A stretch of DNA of 43,188 bases, taken from the NCBI GenBank assembly GCA_038746835.1, contig JBCDKH010000008.1, positions 1 to 43,188 of the forward strand, given 5' to 3'. The number at the start of each line of letters is the position of its first letter. Position 1 is the first letter of the stretch. Position numbers and translations under genes: made by a program. The notes under the pieces were generated by a model, which was given only the letters and a program-made list of their open reading frames with translations, had not been told where the DNA came from and made no database searches. The stretch is from Planctomycetota bacterium. GTDB taxonomy: Bacteria > Planctomycetota > Phycisphaerae > Tepidisphaerales > Tepidisphaeraceae. Below, one piece after another: positions 16,760 through 26,497 of the stretch.

Positions 16760-17185
16760 ATGACGACGCTGCAGATTCACGACCAGACCCTCGACGGCCA
16801 GCGCGATGCTGCTCCGACGGAGCTGACCTTCGATGGGCTGGCCGAGACGGTGACCGTCCGCGAGCTGATCCGGGCCCGCGTCTACCAGGAGGCCGACGAC
16901 CACAACCGCCGCGTCCGCGAGGCCAATGCCGGTGCCCAGCCGTACGGCGGCCTCGTCACGCCCGCCGACGCCGAACGCGAGCTCAACGGCCCGAAGCACG
17001 GCCGGCTACTGGCCAAGGAGGTCGACTGGCGCAAGCAGTTCGACGCCGCAATCGACGCGTTCGAGCGGAACGGCTTTCTGATTCTGGTCGATGACGAACA
17101 GTTAACCGACCTCGACGCCGCGATCACGCTCGGCCCGAGCACCGACGTCGCATTTGTTCGGCTCACCATGTTGGTGGGAGGCTGA
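16760..17185 (+). CDS. Small acidic partner gene of DUF4132, unknown function
   Basis: A 141-residue cytoplasmic protein starting at MTTLQIHDQT. It contains an acidic, Arg-rich helical middle (VRELIRARVYQEADDHNRRV) and ends with VTF-like strand VAFVRLTMLVGG. No signal peptide or membrane segment is present. It is only 4 bases upstream of the DUF4132 gene, and pairing of a small protein with DUF4132 is a pattern I have seen, so the two probably work together. The start was set at the ATG at 16760; an open extension to 16679 is Ser/Pro-rich and unlikely. Function unknown. Confidence 0.7.
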   Translation: MTTLQIHDQTLDGQRDAAPTELTFDGLAETVTVRELIRARVYQEADDHNRRVREANAGAQPYGGLVTPADAERELNGPKHGRLLAKEVDWRKQFDAAIDAFERNGFLILVDDEQLTDLDAAITLGPSTDVAFVRLTMLVGG

Positions 17186-17189
17186 GGCG

Positions 17190-19847
17190 ATGGGGGAACA
17201 AAACCTGCCGCCGTTGACCGTCTACGACGAGCCGCGACCCTGGTCGCCGGAGGCAGCTGACTTGGTTCAGCAGGTTTGGCCCGGCCCGCGGCCATTGCTC
17301 GATGAGGCTTTCGCGAAAGCGGATCAGTTCCACGCACGCGTCGAGCTCTTTCCTTACGCCGAGCTGGCATCAGAATACGAGCGTCTTGCGCATCTCCTGA
17401 GAAAGCTCATCGATGACCGGCTGAGCGCCCATTCGTCATTTGTCGGCGACATGGAATCCTACAAGAGCTTAATCAAGAGCTCGAAGCAATCATTTACCAC
17501 CCGAACGCTTCTAGCCGCAGAGCATCTCGGTAGGTGGTTGTGGCAGACGCCGCTGATCGACAGATCCTGGAAGTCTGATACTCGAACGGTGGCAATTGCG
17601 TGGTCCGAAGTGACACGGGCACTCGATGACCTGCGGCAGCGTCTCTGGTCGCGTCGAAGCGTGCCTCCTTTACGAGAGCTTACTGCATTGATTGCTGTCG
17701 CGAAGCACTTTCATCGAGAGCGAAGTGACTGGCCGTATGCGAGTAAGGAGTCAGTCAGCGTCTCGAGGCTGATCATCGCGTACTGGAGAAGTCACGGCGA
17801 CATAGATTCTCAGACTCGCCAAGAGGCACAACGTCTTCGAGACCTAGTCTCTGACTGCCACTATGCCGGTACGGACGTTCGAAAGCTTCAACACGATTTT
17901 GAGGAGTTGCTGGGTGATGAGACGTTCGAACTAGTCGGCGGCGACGTCTGGTCGGACACACTTAGCGCAGACACAGAACACTCCTCGACCTGGCAGGCAC
18001 TGCTGCGATTCTGCCGAACGGTCAACGTGACAAAGGCGTCCAAGCCGTGGATGAAGCAGGCCCGTCCGCTGGTCGAGGCGGTTGGGCAAACGTCGGTCTC
18101 CGACGCGGTCCGACGCTGGTTTCCGCTCGTGGGCCTGGCCGGATCGGTAGAACGCCAGTGGAACGGCTACCTCGACGACCCATCACGCTCGGTGCCGCTC
18201 TTCGACAACCAGGCTGTCCTGGCCGGACTCGCCTGGGCGGCGTGCTCGGGGTGTGATGATCCGCCGTTGACGGCAGTGGCCGACGCTGCGGCGAAGTGTT
18301 ACCAAAACATTCCGAAGGTCGGCGTTCGTTGCGAGTCGCTGGGCAACAGCTTCGTCCGCGCGATCGCAAACACATCGACCCGCGACGCGGCCGTGCAGCT
18401 GCTGCGTTTGGAGCACCTCGTTCGCCAGCCGAAACACCGCAAGACCATCAACAAGGCAGTCGCCAAGCTGTGCGAGGACCTCGGCGAGGAGCGTGCCACA
18501 CTCGAAGAGGCGGCGGTGCCCGACTACGGCTTGGTCGACGGGAGCGTGCGCGAACGAGTCGCCGATGCAGAAGCCGAGCTGACCGTCGCTCCGCGCGATC
18601 GAGTTGTGGTCGCTTGGAGTTATGTCGACGGCAAGGGTCGGTCCAAGACGTCCCGATCGGCACCGAAGGCTGTCCGCGACTCGGAGCCCGAAGCCGTCGA
18701 AGCTATCAAGCGAAAGGCGAAGGAGATCGAGTCGCTTCTCCCGGCTCAGAGGTCGCGGCTGGAGCTAATGCTCCGCGAGACGCGCACGTGGCGATTCGAT
18801 GCCTGGCGGTCCGCATACCTGGACCATGGCCTCGTCGGGACGGTTGCCCGCCGCCTCATCTGGTCGATCGATGGCATTGAGGTCGTCTGGATCGACGGAA
18901 GGCTTCACGACGTCGCAGGCAAGCCGATCGAGTTCGCGGCAACAGCAAAAGTGCAACTGTGGCACCCGATTACGGCCAAGGCAGACGACGTACTTCGATG
19001 GCGACAGCGGCTCGAAGCAACGGGCGTGACGCAGCCGTTCAAGCAGGCGCATCGGGAGGTTTACGTCCTGACGGATGCCGAGCGTCAGACGAGTGTCTAC
19101 TCGAATCGCTTTGCGGCACACATTCTGAAGACGCCGACACTCGTCGCGGTGGCCCAGAAACGTCGCTGGGTGGTCGGGCTCTTCGGCGGCGAATCGTCAC
19201 CGAAGACAGAGCTGCCCGCGTGGAACATGCGAGCAGAGTTCTGGGTCGACGAAGCCGATGTCGGCGACGGTGATCAGGATGATGGATACAGCTTCGGCCC
19301 GAGTTACCTCGCGACGGATCAGGTTCGGTTCCATGAGCTCGGCGAGCAGGACCCGATGCCGCTGGATCGCGTGCCTCCCGTCGTGCTGAGCGAGGTGATG
19401 CGAGATGTCGACCTCTTCGTCGGCCTCGCAAGCGTCGGCAACGACCCGCAGTGGCGCGACCGTGGCGTTGAGCAACGCTACCGAGACTACTGGCACGACT
19501 TCTCCTTCGGCGACCTTGGCCAGACGGCTCAGACGCGGAAGGCGGTGTTGGAGAAGCTCATCCCGCGGTTGAAGATCGCGGAGCGCTGCTCGTTCTCCGA
19601 CAAGTTCCTCGTCGTTCACGGGGACGTGCGGACGTACAAGATCCACCTCGGCAGCGGCAACATTCTCATGGAGCCGAATGATCAGTACCTCTGCATCGTG
19701 CCCGACAGGCGGGCGGAGGCGGCGACGGAAAAGAGCTACCTGCCGTTCGAGGGCGACCGCACGATGAGCGTCATCGTCAGCAAAGCGCTGCTGCTGGCGG
19801 ATGACACGAAGATTACGGATTCGACGATCATTTCTCAGATTCGCTGA
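17190..19847 (+). CDS. DUF4132 domain protein
   Basis: A predicted 885-residue cytoplasmic protein, with the ATG at 17190 preceded by GGGAGG. The N-terminal half is helical (repeat-like) and has no motif I recognise. The C-terminal ~350 residues are a DUF4132 domain: LVGTVARRLIWSIDG, VYVLTDAERQTSVYSNRFAAHIL, LFVGLASVGNDPQW and the end SKALLLADDTKITDSTI are diagnostic phrases. DUF4132 occurs in MolR-like regulatory proteins, and its activity is unknown. The stretch about 17400-18000 uses more A+T-rich codons than the rest of the gene, suggesting mosaic origin. It follows its small partner by 4 bases. Confidence 0.88.
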   Translation: MGEQNLPPLTVYDEPRPWSPEAADLVQQVWPGPRPLLDEAFAKADQFHARVELFPYAELASEYERLAHLLRKLIDDRLSAHSSFVGDMESYKSLIKSSKQSFTTRTLLAAEHLGRWLWQTPLIDRSWKSDTRTVAIAWSEVTRALDDLRQRLWSRRSVPPLRELTALIAVAKHFHRERSDWPYASKESVSVSRLIIAYWRSHGDIDSQTRQEAQRLRDLVSDCHYAGTDVRKLQHDFEELLGDETFELVGGDVWSDTLSADTEHSSTWQALLRFCRTVNVTKASKPWMKQARPLVEAVGQTSVSDAVRRWFPLVGLAGSVERQWNGYLDDPSRSVPLFDNQAVLAGLAWAACSGCDDPPLTAVADAAAKCYQNIPKVGVRCESLGNSFVRAIANTSTRDAAVQLLRLEHLVRQPKHRKTINKAVAKLCEDLGEERATLEEAAVPDYGLVDGSVRERVADAEAELTVAPRDRVVVAWSYVDGKGRSKTSRSAPKAVRDSEPEAVEAIKRKAKEIESLLPAQRSRLELMLRETRTWRFDAWRSAYLDHGLVGTVARRLIWSIDGIEVVWIDGRLHDVAGKPIEFAATAKVQLWHPITAKADDVLRWRQRLEATGVTQPFKQAHREVYVLTDAERQTSVYSNRFAAHILKTPTLVAVAQKRRWVVGLFGGESSPKTELPAWNMRAEFWVDEADVGDGDQDDGYSFGPSYLATDQVRFHELGEQDPMPLDRVPPVVLSEVMRDVDLFVGLASVGNDPQWRDRGVEQRYRDYWHDFSFGDLGQTAQTRKAVLEKLIPRLKIAERCSFSDKFLVVHGDVRTYKIHLGSGNILMEPNDQYLCIVPDRRAEAATEKSYLPFEGDRTMSVIVSKALLLADDTKITDSTIISQIR

Positions 19848-20825: not shown

Positions 20826-20917
20826 GGAACGAGCGTACGGCCGCGAGTTTCGAGGCTGGGCGTATCCTGTTCAGACGGCTATTTTGCCGTTCTCCCCGAA
20901 CCTTTACCAATAACGCC

Positions 20918-23149
20918 ATGTCCACCACTGCCGCCGCTGACGCACGAATCACGACCAATGGACGCTGTCCCGTCATGGGCATTTCAGGCCTCGCCCTCGG
21001 CAAGTCCGGCTACGCCAACAAGGACTGGTGGCCCGATCAGCTCGACGTCGGCATCCTCCACCAGCACGGCGGCAAGGCCAGCCCGATGGCGGACGATTTC
21101 GACTACGCCAAGGCGTTCGAGTCGCTGGATTTGGCGGAGGTGAAGAAGGACATCGAGAAGGTGCTGACGACCAGCGTCGACTGGTGGCCGGCCGACTTCG
21201 GGCACTACGGGCCGTTCATGATCCGCATGGCGTGGCACGCGGCCGGCACGTATCGCACGGCTGACGGTCGCGGCGGCAGCGGGTCGGGCATGTTGCGTTT
21301 CGCGCCGCTCAACTCCTGGCCTGACAACGCGAACCTCGACAAGGCGCGCCGGCTCATCTGGCCGGTGAAGCAGAAGTACGGCAGCAAGCTGTCGTGGGGT
21401 GATCTCATGATCCTGACCGGCAACGTCGCGATCGAGTCGATGGGCCTGCCGACGTTCGGCTTCGGCGGCGGACGCGTCGACCGGTGGGAGCCGGACGATG
21501 GCATCTACTGGGGCCCGGAACAAGAGTGGCTCGCCGACAAGCGGTACGACGGCAAAGAGCCCGGCAAGCGCATGCTCGAAACGCCGCTCGGTGCCGTGCA
21601 GATGGGCCTGATTTACGTCAACCCGCAGGGCAGCAACGGTCGACACGATCCGAAGGAGTCGGCACACGACATCCGCGAGACGTTCGGCCGAATGGCGATG
21701 AACGACTACGAGACCGTCGCGCTCGTCGCCGGTGGGCACACGTTCGGCAAGTCGCACGCGGCGGCCGAGCCGGCAATGCACGTCGGGCCCGAGCCGGAGA
21801 GCGCCGCGATCGCCGATCAGGGCTTCGGCTGGCGCAACTCGTTCGAATCGGGTCGCGGTGCCCACACGATCACGAGCGAGATGGAAGGCGTCTGGACGAG
21901 CAAGCCGACGCAGTGGGACAACGACTACCTCGACAAGCTCTTCAAGTACGACTGGCAACAGACGCGTTCGCCCGCGGGTGCCGTGCAGTGGGAGCCGGTC
22001 GGCGACGTCGATGAGAGCGACCTCGTGCCCGACGCGCACGACCCGAGCAAGAAGCACAAGCCGATGATGTTCACGACGGACCTCTCGCTGAAGGAGGATC
22101 CGTCGTACAAGGAGATTTCGAGGCATTTCCAGCAGAATCCCGAAGAGTTCGGCCAGGCATTCGCCAAGGCGTGGTACAAGCTGACCCACCGCGACATGGG
22201 CCCGCACGAGCGTCTGCTCGGGCCGGAAGTGCCCGAGCCGCAGCTTTGGCAGGATCCGGTACCCGCGGTCGAAGGCGAGCTCGTCAACGACGAGGACGTC
22301 AAGCAGCTCAAGGCGAAGCTGCTCGACAGCGGCCTGACCACGGCCCAGCTCGTCTCGACGGCTTGGGCAGCAGCGTCGAGCTTCCGCGGCACCGACAAGC
22401 GCGGCGGAGCCAACGGCGGTCGCATTCGTCTCGAGCCACAGAAATCCTGGACGATCAATCAACCCGACGAGCTCGCGAAGGTTCTGCCGGTGTTGGAGAA
22501 AGTCGCCGACGACTGGAACGCGTCGAGCGACCGCAAGATCAGCTTCGCCGACACCGTCGTTCTCGGCGGATGTGCCGGCGTCGAATCGGCGGCAAAGCAG
22601 GGCGGCGTTGACGTGACCGTGCCATTCCGTCCGGGTCGGACCGATGCGTCGCAGGAGCACACCGATGTCGACTCGTTCAACGTGCTCGAAATCACGGCCG
22701 ACGGTTTCCGCAACTACATCTCATCCGACCACACGAAGCCGGCCCACGAGCTGCTCATCGATCGGGCCCACCTGCTCAACCTGACCGCGCCGGAAATGAC
22801 GGCGCTTGTCGGCGGACTGCGCGTCCTCGGCACCAACGTCGGTCACCCGACGCTCGGCCTGTTCACCGAACGCCCGGGGACGCTGAGCAACGACTTCTTC
22901 GTCAACCTGCTCGACATGCAGTACGAGTGGGGCGTCAGCACCATGTGCGACCACTTCTACGAGGGCAAGCACCGCGAGACGGGCGAGACCAAGTGGATGG
23001 GCACGAGCGTCGACTTGCTCTTCGGCAGCAACAGCATCTTGCGGGCGCTTGCAGAGGTCTACGCGAGCGACGATGCCGGCGAAATGTTTATCCACGACTT
23101 CATCACAGCGTGGAACAAGGTGATGGAACTCGATCGATTCGACCGTTGA
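20918..23149 (+). CDS. katG: Catalase-peroxidase KatG
   Basis: A 743-residue bifunctional haem enzyme that removes hydrogen peroxide. The ATG at 20918 gives the expected N-terminus; the open extension upstream is Arg-rich and spurious. The N-terminal catalytic half shows distal Arg103, Trp106 and His107 ([13 protein letters not shown]), proximal His274 ([12 protein letters not shown]), and the partners of the Met-Tyr-Trp adduct, Trp106, Tyr233 (LIYVNPQG) and Met259 (GRMAMNDY). The C-terminal half is the usual inactive gene-duplicated domain. It lies 76 bases upstream of the crtY-blh fusion on the same strand, so a shared stress or light response is conceivable, but no shared promoter is proven. 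Confidence 0.97.
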
Positions 23150-23225: not shown

Positions 23226-25463
23226 ATGGTCGGCAACACAGTGCAGGAGTCGTCGTCTTATCCCGGCACGTGTGCCGTCGATGTTTTGATCATCGGCGGC
23301 GGTTGCGCGGGACTGGCGCTGGCACACCGCTTGGAGTCGTCGTCGCTGAGCGTTGCAGTCGTCGAGCCGCGCACTGACTACGGTCGCGATCGCACTTGGT
23401 GTTTCTGGCTCGACGAATCGCCCGACCGGCGTGATCCTGCCGACGCGATTCCGGAAGTCGTTCGCAAGAACATCCGCTGGCGATGGTCCAAGTGGGCCGT
23501 CGACGGCGGGATGGGTGATGCGGTGATTCGGTCAATGCCCGGGCTCTCGTATGCCGGGCTCACGGCGACCGACTACTACGACGCGATCCTTCCGACGCTC
23601 AAGAAGACCACGCTCTATCGCGGCTGGTCTGCAGACCGTGTCGACGCGACCGGTGCTCGGATCCGTCGAGATGGCGAGTCGGTCGAGCTCGCAGCGCGAT
23701 TCGTCGTCGACACTCGTCCGCCCGCGAGCTACAGGCCCAACCCGACGACGCGTGAGTCGGTCGGCGCTTCGGACGGCGACGAAGACCTGATTCAGCAGTT
23801 CGTCGGCCGAACGTTCCGAGGCAAGCTGGATCAGTCGCTCGCGACCGTGATGCAGTTCGACGAGGACTCCGAGACAGAGACCGGGCTCGCGTTCCTCTAC
23901 GTCCTGCCCGTCGGCGACGACGAAGTGCTGGTCGACTGGACTGGCATGCTCCGAGCCCCGCTGGCATGGAGCGAGGCAGAAGCACGGCTCATCGAAGGGG
24001 TCCAAAAGCACTACCCACAGCTCGAGCTCGACGAGGACGGCTACGCCGAGTCGGGCCTGTTGCCGATGTCGTCGGCGAGCGATGTTCGACCCAAAGACGA
24101 CGGCATCGTCCGCCTCGGCATTCGCGGCGGCGCGTGCCGGCCGAGCACCGGTTACGCCTTCCTCCAGATCCAACGCCAAGCGCAAAAGCTGGCGGACGAA
24201 CTGACGCACCGCGACGACCTTGTGGCACCTGCACCAGCTGGCCGGAGTCGCTGGCTTCAGCTCCTCGATCACATTTTCGTTCGCAAGCTGCGCAAGGAGC
24301 CCGAAGCCTTCCCAGGCCTGTTTGCAAGGCTTTTCCGCCAAGTCCGGCCGGACCGGCTAGCTCGCTTCTTATCGGACGTCCCGACCGCGCGCGATGGAGC
24401 CTCGGTCGTCATGGCGATGCCGAAGCTTCCATTTGCCAAAGAAGCGATCGCTGGGCTTGGCGTCGTACGTCGAATCAAGTCGATTGACTGGCAGTCGCAC
24501 CGCCGCCTGGCCGTTCCGGTCACGGCGGTGTTGACGTTGGTTCTCGTCGGCCTGCTGCAGTGGCTGTCGATTCCAGCAACTGTCCAGGTCGGCCTGCTCG
24601 CGATTGCGGCAGCCGTCGGCATGGCGCATGGTGCGACGGACGTCTGGGTCGGACGCCGACTCTTCGGCAACACCGCTCAAGGGCGTGCGCGATTCGGCCA
24701 GCTGTATGTCGCACTCGCAGCGGCAGCGGTGGGGCTGTACCTCCTCGCGCCCGGCGTCTGGCTCGTCGGTTTCCTCGCACTGTCTCTACTGCACTTTGGC
24801 TTCGGCGAGTTGCCTTCGCTGACACCGCGATCGATCGGCGAGGGCGTCGAGTCGCTTGTCCGCGGGCTGATGCCGATCGCCTTGCCGGCTCTGATCTTTG
24901 CCGGCGACGTGCAGTTCGCACTCGCCGCGATCGCGCCGTCGTCCGCCGCGATCGTGACATCGACGCTCGCGTTCCTCGCCGTGCCGACGTTGTTGGCTGT
25001 GGGCGTGCTCCTCGTGGTGGACGTGGCAGCCAGACGCTGGCTGTCCGCCGCAGAACTCGTGGCCGTCGCGGCGTTGTTGGTCTTCGTGCCGCCGCTTTTG
25101 GCGTTCGCTGTCTACTTCGCCCTCTGGCATTCGACGCGGCACCTGCTGAGCGACGTCATCGACGCTCCGGCCGGTGGTGCCGAGCGTCCGATCGCACCTG
25201 TCGTCTTCGCAACGATTGCCCCGGTCGCCGGTGCATTGATCATTTGGCCGTTGCTTTGGGCATCGCCTTTGGCTGGCGGCGCTCTGTCGGCAACGTCTGC
25301 AGCGATTCGCGTCGTGTTCGTCACGCTGGGCTGCCTGACGGTCCCGCACATGCTTCTCGTTTTCGTCGCCGCTCGCCGCCACGTGGTGGCACAGCAGCAG
25401 GCGACGTCATCCGTTCGGCAGGCCCCTTCGGTCGCCGTTTCACCTTCCGCTCTAACGCTCTAA
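23226..25463 (+). CDS. Fusion of lycopene beta-cyclase (CrtY) and beta-carotene 15,15'-dioxygenase (Brp/Blh)
   Basis: One 745-residue polypeptide. Residues ~18-400 are CrtY: a FAD-binding GGGCAG (24-29) in DVLIIGGGCAGLALAH, the family phrase DRTWCFW, FLYVLPVGDDEVLVDWTG, ESGLLPMSS and STGYAFLQIQ. It would cyclise lycopene to beta-carotene. From ~420 the sequence is a polytopic membrane protein of the Brp/Blh family, which cleaves beta-carotene into two retinals. Its four expected iron-binding histidines are His468 (AHGATD), His523 (LHFGFGE), His635 and His639 (WHSTRH). Their spacing (55, 112, 4) is close to that recalled for Blh of marine bacterium 66A03 (57, 110, 4). The stop is 17 bases before the rhodopsin start, so they form an operon. 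Lycopene-making genes are not in the window. Confidence 0.93.
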   Translation: MVGNTVQESSSYPGTCAVDVLIIGGGCAGLALAHRLESSSLSVAVVEPRTDYGRDRTWCFWLDESPDRRDPADAIPEVVRKNIRWRWSKWAVDGGMGDAVIRSMPGLSYAGLTATDYYDAILPTLKKTTLYRGWSADRVDATGARIRRDGESVELAARFVVDTRPPASYRPNPTTRESVGASDGDEDLIQQFVGRTFRGKLDQSLATVMQFDEDSETETGLAFLYVLPVGDDEVLVDWTGMLRAPLAWSEAEARLIEGVQKHYPQLELDEDGYAESGLLPMSSASDVRPKDDGIVRLGIRGGACRPSTGYAFLQIQRQAQKLADELTHRDDLVAPAPAGRSRWLQLLDHIFVRKLRKEPEAFPGLFARLFRQVRPDRLARFLSDVPTARDGASVVMAMPKLPFAKEAIAGLGVVRRIKSIDWQSHRRLAVPVTAVLTLVLVGLLQWLSIPATVQVGLLAIAAAVGMAHGATDVWVGRRLFGNTAQGRARFGQLYVALAAAAVGLYLLAPGVWLVGFLALSLLHFGFGELPSLTPRSIGEGVESLVRGLMPIALPALIFAGDVQFALAAIAPSSAAIVTSTLAFLAVPTLLAVGVLLVVDVAARRWLSAAELVAVAALLVFVPPLLAFAVYFALWHSTRHLLSDVIDAPAGGAERPIAPVVFATIAPVAGALIIWPLLWASPLAGGALSATSAAIRVVFVTLGCLTVPHMLLVFVAARRHVVAQQQATSSVRQAPSVAVSPSALTL

Positions 25464-25466
25464 TTC

Positions 25467-25472
25467 AGGAGA
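25467..25472 (+). promoter_or_regulatory. Strong ribosome binding site of the rhodopsin gene
   Basis: AGGAGA lies 7 bases before the ATG at 25480. A clear Shine-Dalgarno is unusual among genes of this window, most of which lack one, and suggests high translation of the rhodopsin. Confidence 0.75.
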
Positions 25473-25479
25473 CCTGCCG

Positions 25480-26427
25480 ATGGTCATGGAGAACTTCATC
25501 GTGTTCAGCCCTTGGGCGAACTTCATCATCGCCCACGTGCTGAGCCTTGGAGCTGCAGCCATGTTTGCGGGGCTTGTCTACTTCATCGTCACGGCGAAGC
25601 AGATCAGCCCGAAGTACCGCGTTGCCAACTGGCTCGGCGCGGTCGTCATGGTTTCAGCTGCTCTGGAACTGGGCAACCAGTACATCGTCTGGAAAAGCTC
25701 GATCGTGCCGTTCACCGGTGCCGACGGTGCCACGCTCTTCGCTGTCGGCGAAAACAGCTCGCGCTTCAGCAACGGCTACCGCTACGTGAACTGGTCGATC
25801 GATGTGCCCGTGCTGCTCGCGCAGTTCGTGGTCGTCTTCGGACTCATGGGCAAGAAATTCTGGTCGCCCGTGATTCAGTTCACGATCGCCGGCTTGCTCA
25901 TGATCTACTTCGGTTACATCGGCCAGTTCTTCGAGGCCGTTCCAGAAGCTGGCACTCAGATCGCCGCTGGCGCTAGCAGTGTCGGTGGTGACCTTCTGGC
26001 CAGCAACGTCGGTCAGAACGCGACCTACTGGCTCATGTTTGTCGTGTCCTGCGTCTTCTACCTCTGGATTCTGTACCTGGTGCTCGCGGTCGGCCTGAAC
26101 AAGGACAACCTTGCCAAGCTGCCGCCCAAGGCCCAGGCGTGGATGAAGGCTGTCGTCTGGACGCTCTTCGGATCGTGGATGCTCTACCTCGTCGGCTACC
26201 TCATGCCGGCCGTGAGCATCTCCGAAGAATCTGCCGTGATCCGTCAGATGGCATACACCATCGCCGACATCGTCTCGAAGGTGCTCTACGGCATCATGCT
26301 CGGCTACGTTGCGGTCCTTCGCAGCAACGCCGAGGGTTACAACGAAGACCGACTCGACCGCATTGGTTACGACCAGGGCGGCAAGCAGCTGGGTCAGTAC
26401 GACCCGACGACCGAGGCGACCGCCTGA
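25480..26427 (+). CDS. NDQ-type microbial rhodopsin, predicted light-driven sodium pump (KR2-like)
   Basis: A 315-residue seven-helix retinal protein. Helix C reads GYRYVNWSIDVPVLLAQF: Arg101, then Asn104, Asp108 and Gln115 at the bacteriorhodopsin 85/89/96 positions. This is the NDQ motif of the sodium pump KR2 (N112/D116/Q123). Helix G has TIADIVSKVLYG with Asp263 and the retinal Schiff-base Lys267. The phrases FSNGYRYVNW, GYIGQFFE and YTIADIVSK closely match KR2. Leu112 at the proteorhodopsin-105 site predicts green absorption. Predicted reaction: light-driven outward Na+ transport (H+ when Na+ is scarce). Unusual: a D-E loop about 25 residues longer than in KR2. Ion selectivity is inference from motif, though well supported in the family. 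It lies 17 bases downstream of the retinal-forming fusion. Confidence 0.95.
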   Translation: MVMENFIVFSPWANFIIAHVLSLGAAAMFAGLVYFIVTAKQISPKYRVANWLGAVVMVSAALELGNQYIVWKSSIVPFTGADGATLFAVGENSSRFSNGYRYVNWSIDVPVLLAQFVVVFGLMGKKFWSPVIQFTIAGLLMIYFGYIGQFFEAVPEAGTQIAAGASSVGGDLLASNVGQNATYWLMFVVSCVFYLWILYLVLAVGLNKDNLAKLPPKAQAWMKAVVWTLFGSWMLYLVGYLMPAVSISEESAVIRQMAYTIADIVSKVLYGIMLGYVAVLRSNAEGYNEDRLDRIGYDQGGKQLGQYDPTTEATA

Positions 26428-26463
26428 ACGCAGGCAACTGGACGTTCCGGAACGTCTTACCCG

Positions 26464-26497
26464 GAGGCAGGGCCATCAACGTGACCCTGCCTCTTTC
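26464..26497 (+). terminator. Rho-independent terminator after the rhodopsin
   Basis: A perfect 9-bp stem, GAGGCAGGG (26464-26472) with CCCTGCCTC (26485-26493), has a 12-base loop and is followed by TTTC. It starts 37 bases after the rhodopsin stop and would separate the light cassette from lpxI. Confidence 0.75.

Follow-up and report, generated by a model that had tools for sequence, protein, structure and literature searches.

A window of 43,188 nt from a draft genome of the Planctomycetota includes an open reading frame at 25480–26427 (+ strand) for which an original prediction, made from the letters alone, had proposed a light-driven sodium pump of the NDQ type. The question raised by this locus is whether the gene does encode such a pump, of which kind, and whether it belongs to a planctomycete. 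The ORF has an ATG start and encodes 315 aa that match the Pfam profile Bac_rhodopsin (PF01036, E 5.5e-28). In a PDB sequence search the best match was ErNaR (8qle, E 2.5e-52), with KR2 at about 3e-39, and ErNaR was also the top Foldseek match of the AlphaFold2 model, which has seven helices and a pLDDT of 84.1 with low values mainly at the DE loop and the C-terminus. Because a homologue sharing 75 % identity is present in a second genus (genome G016), with a Ka/Ks of about 0.21, the ORF is not a chance one, and the pair is under purifying selection.

The residues used to define the NDQ set were those of Podoliak et al. 2024 (PMC11006869), namely R109, N112, D116, Q123 and D251 of KR2 together with the retinal lysine K255 (K216 is printed in the text of that paper), and the KR2 reference sequence was confirmed against PDB. 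The full set aligns with residues of the window protein, which are Arg101 (25780–25782), Asn104 (25789–25791), Asp108 (25801–25803) and Gln115 (25822–25824) in helix C (25780–25824, + strand), and Asp263, the second counterion, and Lys267, the retinal Schiff base lysine, in helix G (26266–26280, + strand). Asn104, Asp108 and Gln115 are where the original prediction had them, and the KR2-like phrases it reported near helices C, D and G (FSNGYRYVNWSIDVPVLL and YTIADIVSK) are present. Equivalents of KR2 S70, H30, Q78, E160, W215, Y218, R243 and S254 are also all found, as are those of N61 and G263, which form the cytoplasmic filter. Overall identity to KR2 (from Krokinobacter/Dokdonia, Subgroup 1) is 40 %.

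A simply KR2-like rhodopsin is nevertheless ruled out by a glutamate that had been missed and by the loss of KR2 D102. Subgroup 2 of the NDQ rhodopsins was defined by a Glu at the position of KR2 Leu74 and its members have D102 absent or substituted, while R19 of ErNaR was highlighted but is not a criterion (PMC11006869). Because the stretch AALELG on helix B is common to the window rhodopsin and ErNaR, Glu63 (25666–25668, + strand) can be placed at KR2 Leu74 and ErNaR Glu64, where it would serve as an additional Schiff-base counterion, the role reported for ErNaR (PMC11006869). The G016 rhodopsin also has Glu here. D102, which belongs to the interprotomer Na+ site of KR2, is replaced by Ser in the window protein and Thr in that from G016, and Ala18 stands in place of the Arg found close to this site in ErNaR (Arg19). 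The residue criterion as published thus assigns the window rhodopsin to Subgroup 2, an assignment that rests on residues and not on a resolved tree, and of the earlier KR2-like NDQ reading the NDQ part stands and the type becomes that of ErNaR (Erythrobacter sp. HL-111) and SrNaR (Salinarimonas rosea), which share the NDQ motif, the helix B Glu and the lack of D102. The window rhodopsin and ErNaR are 37 % identical over 270 aligned residues, and ErNaR differs in having Ala/Ser rather than Asn/Gly in the filter, Arg19, and a shorter DE loop.

Trees were built from 49 and then 42 rhodopsin sequences. The window and G016 proteins pair (100/100) on a long branch that lies within the clade of NDQ and NTQ pumps (NaR/ClR, 100/100), apart from planctomycete rhodopsins of proton-pump types. 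Within this clade, AU tests did not reject a position with KR2 (p 0.287), with the ErNaR type (p 0.436) or at the clade base (p 0.387), and only weakly rejected a grouping with the chloride pumps (p 0.079). A single clade of all Glu-bearing proteins was not recovered but was not rejected either (p-AU 0.337). The comparison with KR2-type, proton and chloride pumps proposed in the original prediction therefore settles the NaR/ClR clade but not the NDQ as opposed to the chloride-pump side of it, and as the AU tests separate the KR2, ErNaR and chloride-pump neighbours poorly, placement inside the NDQ clade rests on the residues. Fold comparison with VIA-align does not help here, as the NTQ chloride pumps (NM-R3/ClR) share the fold (VIA Z 35.7) as well as the wider clade, and Na+ and Cl- pumps are not told apart by Z. 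An NTQ chloride pump was rejected on account of Asp108, found where Thr would be expected (KR2 D116).

When the window and G016 proteins were compared with 40 other NaR/ClR rows of the alignment, three sites stood out, and the residues at all three are common to the pair and differ from those of ErNaR and SrNaR. Gly53 (25636–25638, + strand) replaces KR2 Ser64, which is Ser in all 40 other rows, and the KR2 S64A mutant shows reduced pumping (PMC10608830). Leu237 (26188–26190, + strand) lies at the helix F colour switch, KR2 Pro219, where 36 of the 40 have Pro. The P219L mutant of KR2 absorbs at 541 nm compared to 525 nm for the wild type, a shift of 16 nm to the red (PMC8514524), and natural NaRs lacking this proline are known in JsNaR, a Na+ pump with its absorption at 550 nm, and PoNaR, which have Gly and Thr there rather than Leu (PMC6491443). 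Phe187 (26038–26040, + strand) is at KR2 Gly171, equivalent to xanthorhodopsin Gly156 (Gly in 35 of 39 other rows), a glycine held to ease binding of an antenna (PMC13043013). With this site filled by Phe187, a carotenoid antenna is unlikely and a carotenoid-antenna xanthorhodopsin was ruled out from the alignment. The KR2-type Asn/Gly filter is combined with Glu at KR2 position 74 only in this pair among the aligned sequences, and the extracellular DE-loop region is 31–36 residues long in the pair (31 in the window protein) versus 7 in KR2 and 15 in ErNaR.

The pairing with a retinal-making fusion, also part of the original prediction, is real. A single ORF of 745 aa (23226–25463, + strand), ending 16 bases upstream of the rhodopsin gene, includes a lycopene cyclase (residues 19–405; Pfam Lycopene_cycl) and a beta-carotene 15,15'-dioxygenase (residues 461–712; Pfam BCD/Blh), and is predicted to supply retinal. 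The 16-base gap includes an AGGAG ribosome-binding site (25467–25471, + strand) 8 nt before the start, and the two genes form a predicted two-gene operon. A hairpin 3' of the rhodopsin gene (26463–26494, + strand; fold z -2.38, 10-bp outer stem) is a possible terminator with a weak T tail; it misses the loop and T limits of a terminator consensus scan, which does not list it. In G016, a single-ORF CrtY-Blh fusion (739 aa) likewise precedes the rhodopsin gene. In two further genomes of the same class that have rhodopsins (G571 and G623), crtY and blh were found as adjoining separate matches, and the fusion probably arose from neighbouring separate genes of this kind. A phytoene synthase gene lies elsewhere in the window genome. 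The CrtI-CrtB-CrtYcd-Blh protein of Thecamonas trahens (PMC10016063) also joins a lycopene cyclase and Blh, but is a eukaryotic four-domain protein with a heterodimer-type cyclase, whereas the window fusion has two domains and lies beside a rhodopsin gene. Further upstream are a catalase-peroxidase gene (KatG, 20897–23149, + strand), which is 76 bases from the fusion gene in the window but does not adjoin the operon in G016, and a gene for a DUF4132 and DUF7737 protein (17154–19847, + strand).

A light-driven outward Na+ pump is, on this evidence, the most probable main function, at roughly three in four, so the function originally predicted is upheld as the most likely one from the NDQ set. 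The R-N-D-Q-D-K set, the further KR2 equivalents, the Subgroup 2 Glu with loss of D102, ErNaR as best match and the NaR/ClR clade all support it, as do the CrtY-Blh pairing conserved in a second genus, the low Ka/Ks and the phytoene synthase gene. It is weakened by Gly at KR2 Ser64, Ala18 at ErNaR Arg19, the AU placement and the uninformative VIA Z. The presence of Glu63 makes ErNaR, rather than KR2 alone, the mechanistic model. The sequence and its motif, the pairing of the genes and the phylum of the host are observed here; the transport, colour and pH behaviour proposed below are carried over from ErNaR and KR2. CrtY-Blh would convert lycopene to beta-carotene and cleave it to retinal, which would bind Lys267 of the rhodopsin encoded in that two-gene unit and be isomerized by light. 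The Schiff-base proton would then pass to Asp108, the pKa of which would be kept low by protonated Glu63, Asn104 would swing in, and Na+ would move from the cytoplasmic Asn/Gly filter past Gln115, bind transiently near Asn104, Asp108 and Asp263, and exit outward once the proton returns. In ErNaR, it is Glu64 that keeps the pKa of the main counterion Asp105 low and renders Na+ pumping nearly pH-independent (PMC11006869). Pumping sustained at acidic pH with a low H+ leak would be expected, together with red-shifted absorption, at about 540 nm or more, via Leu237, and an acid-tolerant, red-shifted Na+ pump is the form of this reading considered most likely.

The same unusual sites leave some room for a protein that is mainly an outward proton pump, with Na+ coupling lost or weakened through the Ser64 to Gly replacement and other changes. 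KR2 itself pumps H+ when Na+ is absent (PMC11006869), the S64A mutant pumps less, and Gly at this site is confined to the pair, but the NDQ set and the KR2-type filter are intact, the Gln115 position lacks a carboxylate, and ErNaR, with the same Glu, has negligible H+ current (PMC11006869), making this reading unlikely. A photosensor, or a pump that mainly moves some other ion (K+ or Cl-, for example), is less likely again. The long divergent branch and extended DE-loop region would suit it, as would the fact that this is the single rhodopsin in the genome, but Asp108 in place of the NTQ Thr speaks against Cl- and the KR2-like Asn/Gly filter against K+, and the neighbour is a retinal-making gene, with no adjacent transducer or kinase.

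That the contig is a contaminant from a host outside the planctomycetes is very improbable, as, though the source genome is a MAG of 335 contigs (3.85 Mb, 96.6 % complete) with 2.31 % estimated contamination and only two of 26 genomes in the family (the window genome and G016) carry the rhodopsin, the LpxI gene adjoining the operon is found in all 26 with its sole copy in this genome lying in the window, the sister rhodopsin belongs to a genome from that family, and the flanking genes are similar in third-position GC. The contig looks authentic. Because no 16S gene was found in the bin, rpoB was used to place the host, and it groups with that of G016 (100/99), next with a named Phycisphaerales MAG and genome G392 (100/99), and then with genome G153 (100/100), bearing out the planctomycete host originally proposed. 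The G016 bin has two different rpoB genes (L098 and L103), of which one falls with the family and the other with the lineage of G392, so this bin is partly mixed; the rpoB copy grouping with the window genome agrees with the rhodopsin relationship. Given the presence of the rhodopsin in only these two of the 26 genomes, the gene was probably gained or lost inside the family. Searches of viral contigs revealed no relative, and plasmid matches were restricted to rhodopsins at a distant 27 % identity and to the lycopene cyclases of other bacteria.

The claim that such a gene would widen the known spread of NDQ pumps beyond Bacteroidetes is fair for the phylum Planctomycetota, but only modestly so, because other planctomycete NDQ sequences exist and the type is known well beyond Bacteroidetes. 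ErNaR and SrNaR are from Alphaproteobacteria, many are from Actinomycetota, and Bellilinea (Chloroflexi) carries one (PMC5459899). Proteins of the Subgroup 2 type were found in Actinomycetota, Alphaproteobacteria and a cyanobacterium. Distinct NDQ-type sequences are also present in at least two other genomes of planctomycetes. One, the KR2-like rhodopsin of G153 (L005), lies in the stretch L113:4515-7636 (- strand) directly upstream of ORFs that by eye resemble a response regulator of the OmpR type and a histidine kinase, and no blh gene was recognized among the ORFs read on its 11-kb contig. The other, in a Phycisphaerales MAG (L048:3902-4820, + strand), has Ile at KR2 position 74, and its helix A is broken by an in-frame stop, marking either a pseudogene or an assembly error. 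Two rhodopsins of a single near-closed planctomycete genome (L006, G392:C1:2632033-2632800, and L019, G392:C1:497683-498504) group with L048 (100/99) and have Ala at KR2 Pro219; their motifs at the NDQ positions, N-T-T and N-D-S, are unlike both NTQ and NDQ. No planctomycete NDQ pump turned up in a literature search, and one may already be listed in the supplementary sequence sets of PMC11006869. The window rhodopsin is a deep and unusual branch of a known NDQ kind, and such pumps have hardly been described from its phylum.

The further suggestion of Na+-based phototrophy is weakly supported. Ser or Thr after the carboxylate marks c-rings of the Na+ type, and as the ATP synthase c-subunit of this genome (ALIEGATLFAIV) has neither at that point, the enzyme is probably H+-driven. 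No convincing NQR or RNF membrane subunits were found in the draft genome; an orphan sub-threshold PF03116 match beside a TPR-like protein was not taken as NQR. On the draft genome, light-driven Na+ export more likely serves Na+ balance or Na+-coupled transport than direct ATP synthesis.

It is possible, though this is a tentative reading, that the pair represents a planctomycete-specific NDQ branch that combines the ErNaR Glu and the KR2 filter with the absence of Ser64 and a naturally occurring Pro219 to Leu colour switch. If so, this Na+ pump would tolerate acid, absorb further to the red and have a different gate, and a dedicated CrtY-Blh would pass beta-carotene straight to cleavage. The predicted pump would extend Subgroup 2, from which only ErNaR and SrNaR were reported as studied in 2024 (PMC11006869), to a deep planctomycete branch. 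It would also serve as a natural experiment on the positions (KR2 64, 171 and 219) at which a Na+ pump tolerates substitution, and it offers a concrete prediction of colour and pH behaviour that is relevant to optogenetics, and the one-piece CrtY-Blh would be a compact retinal-making part.
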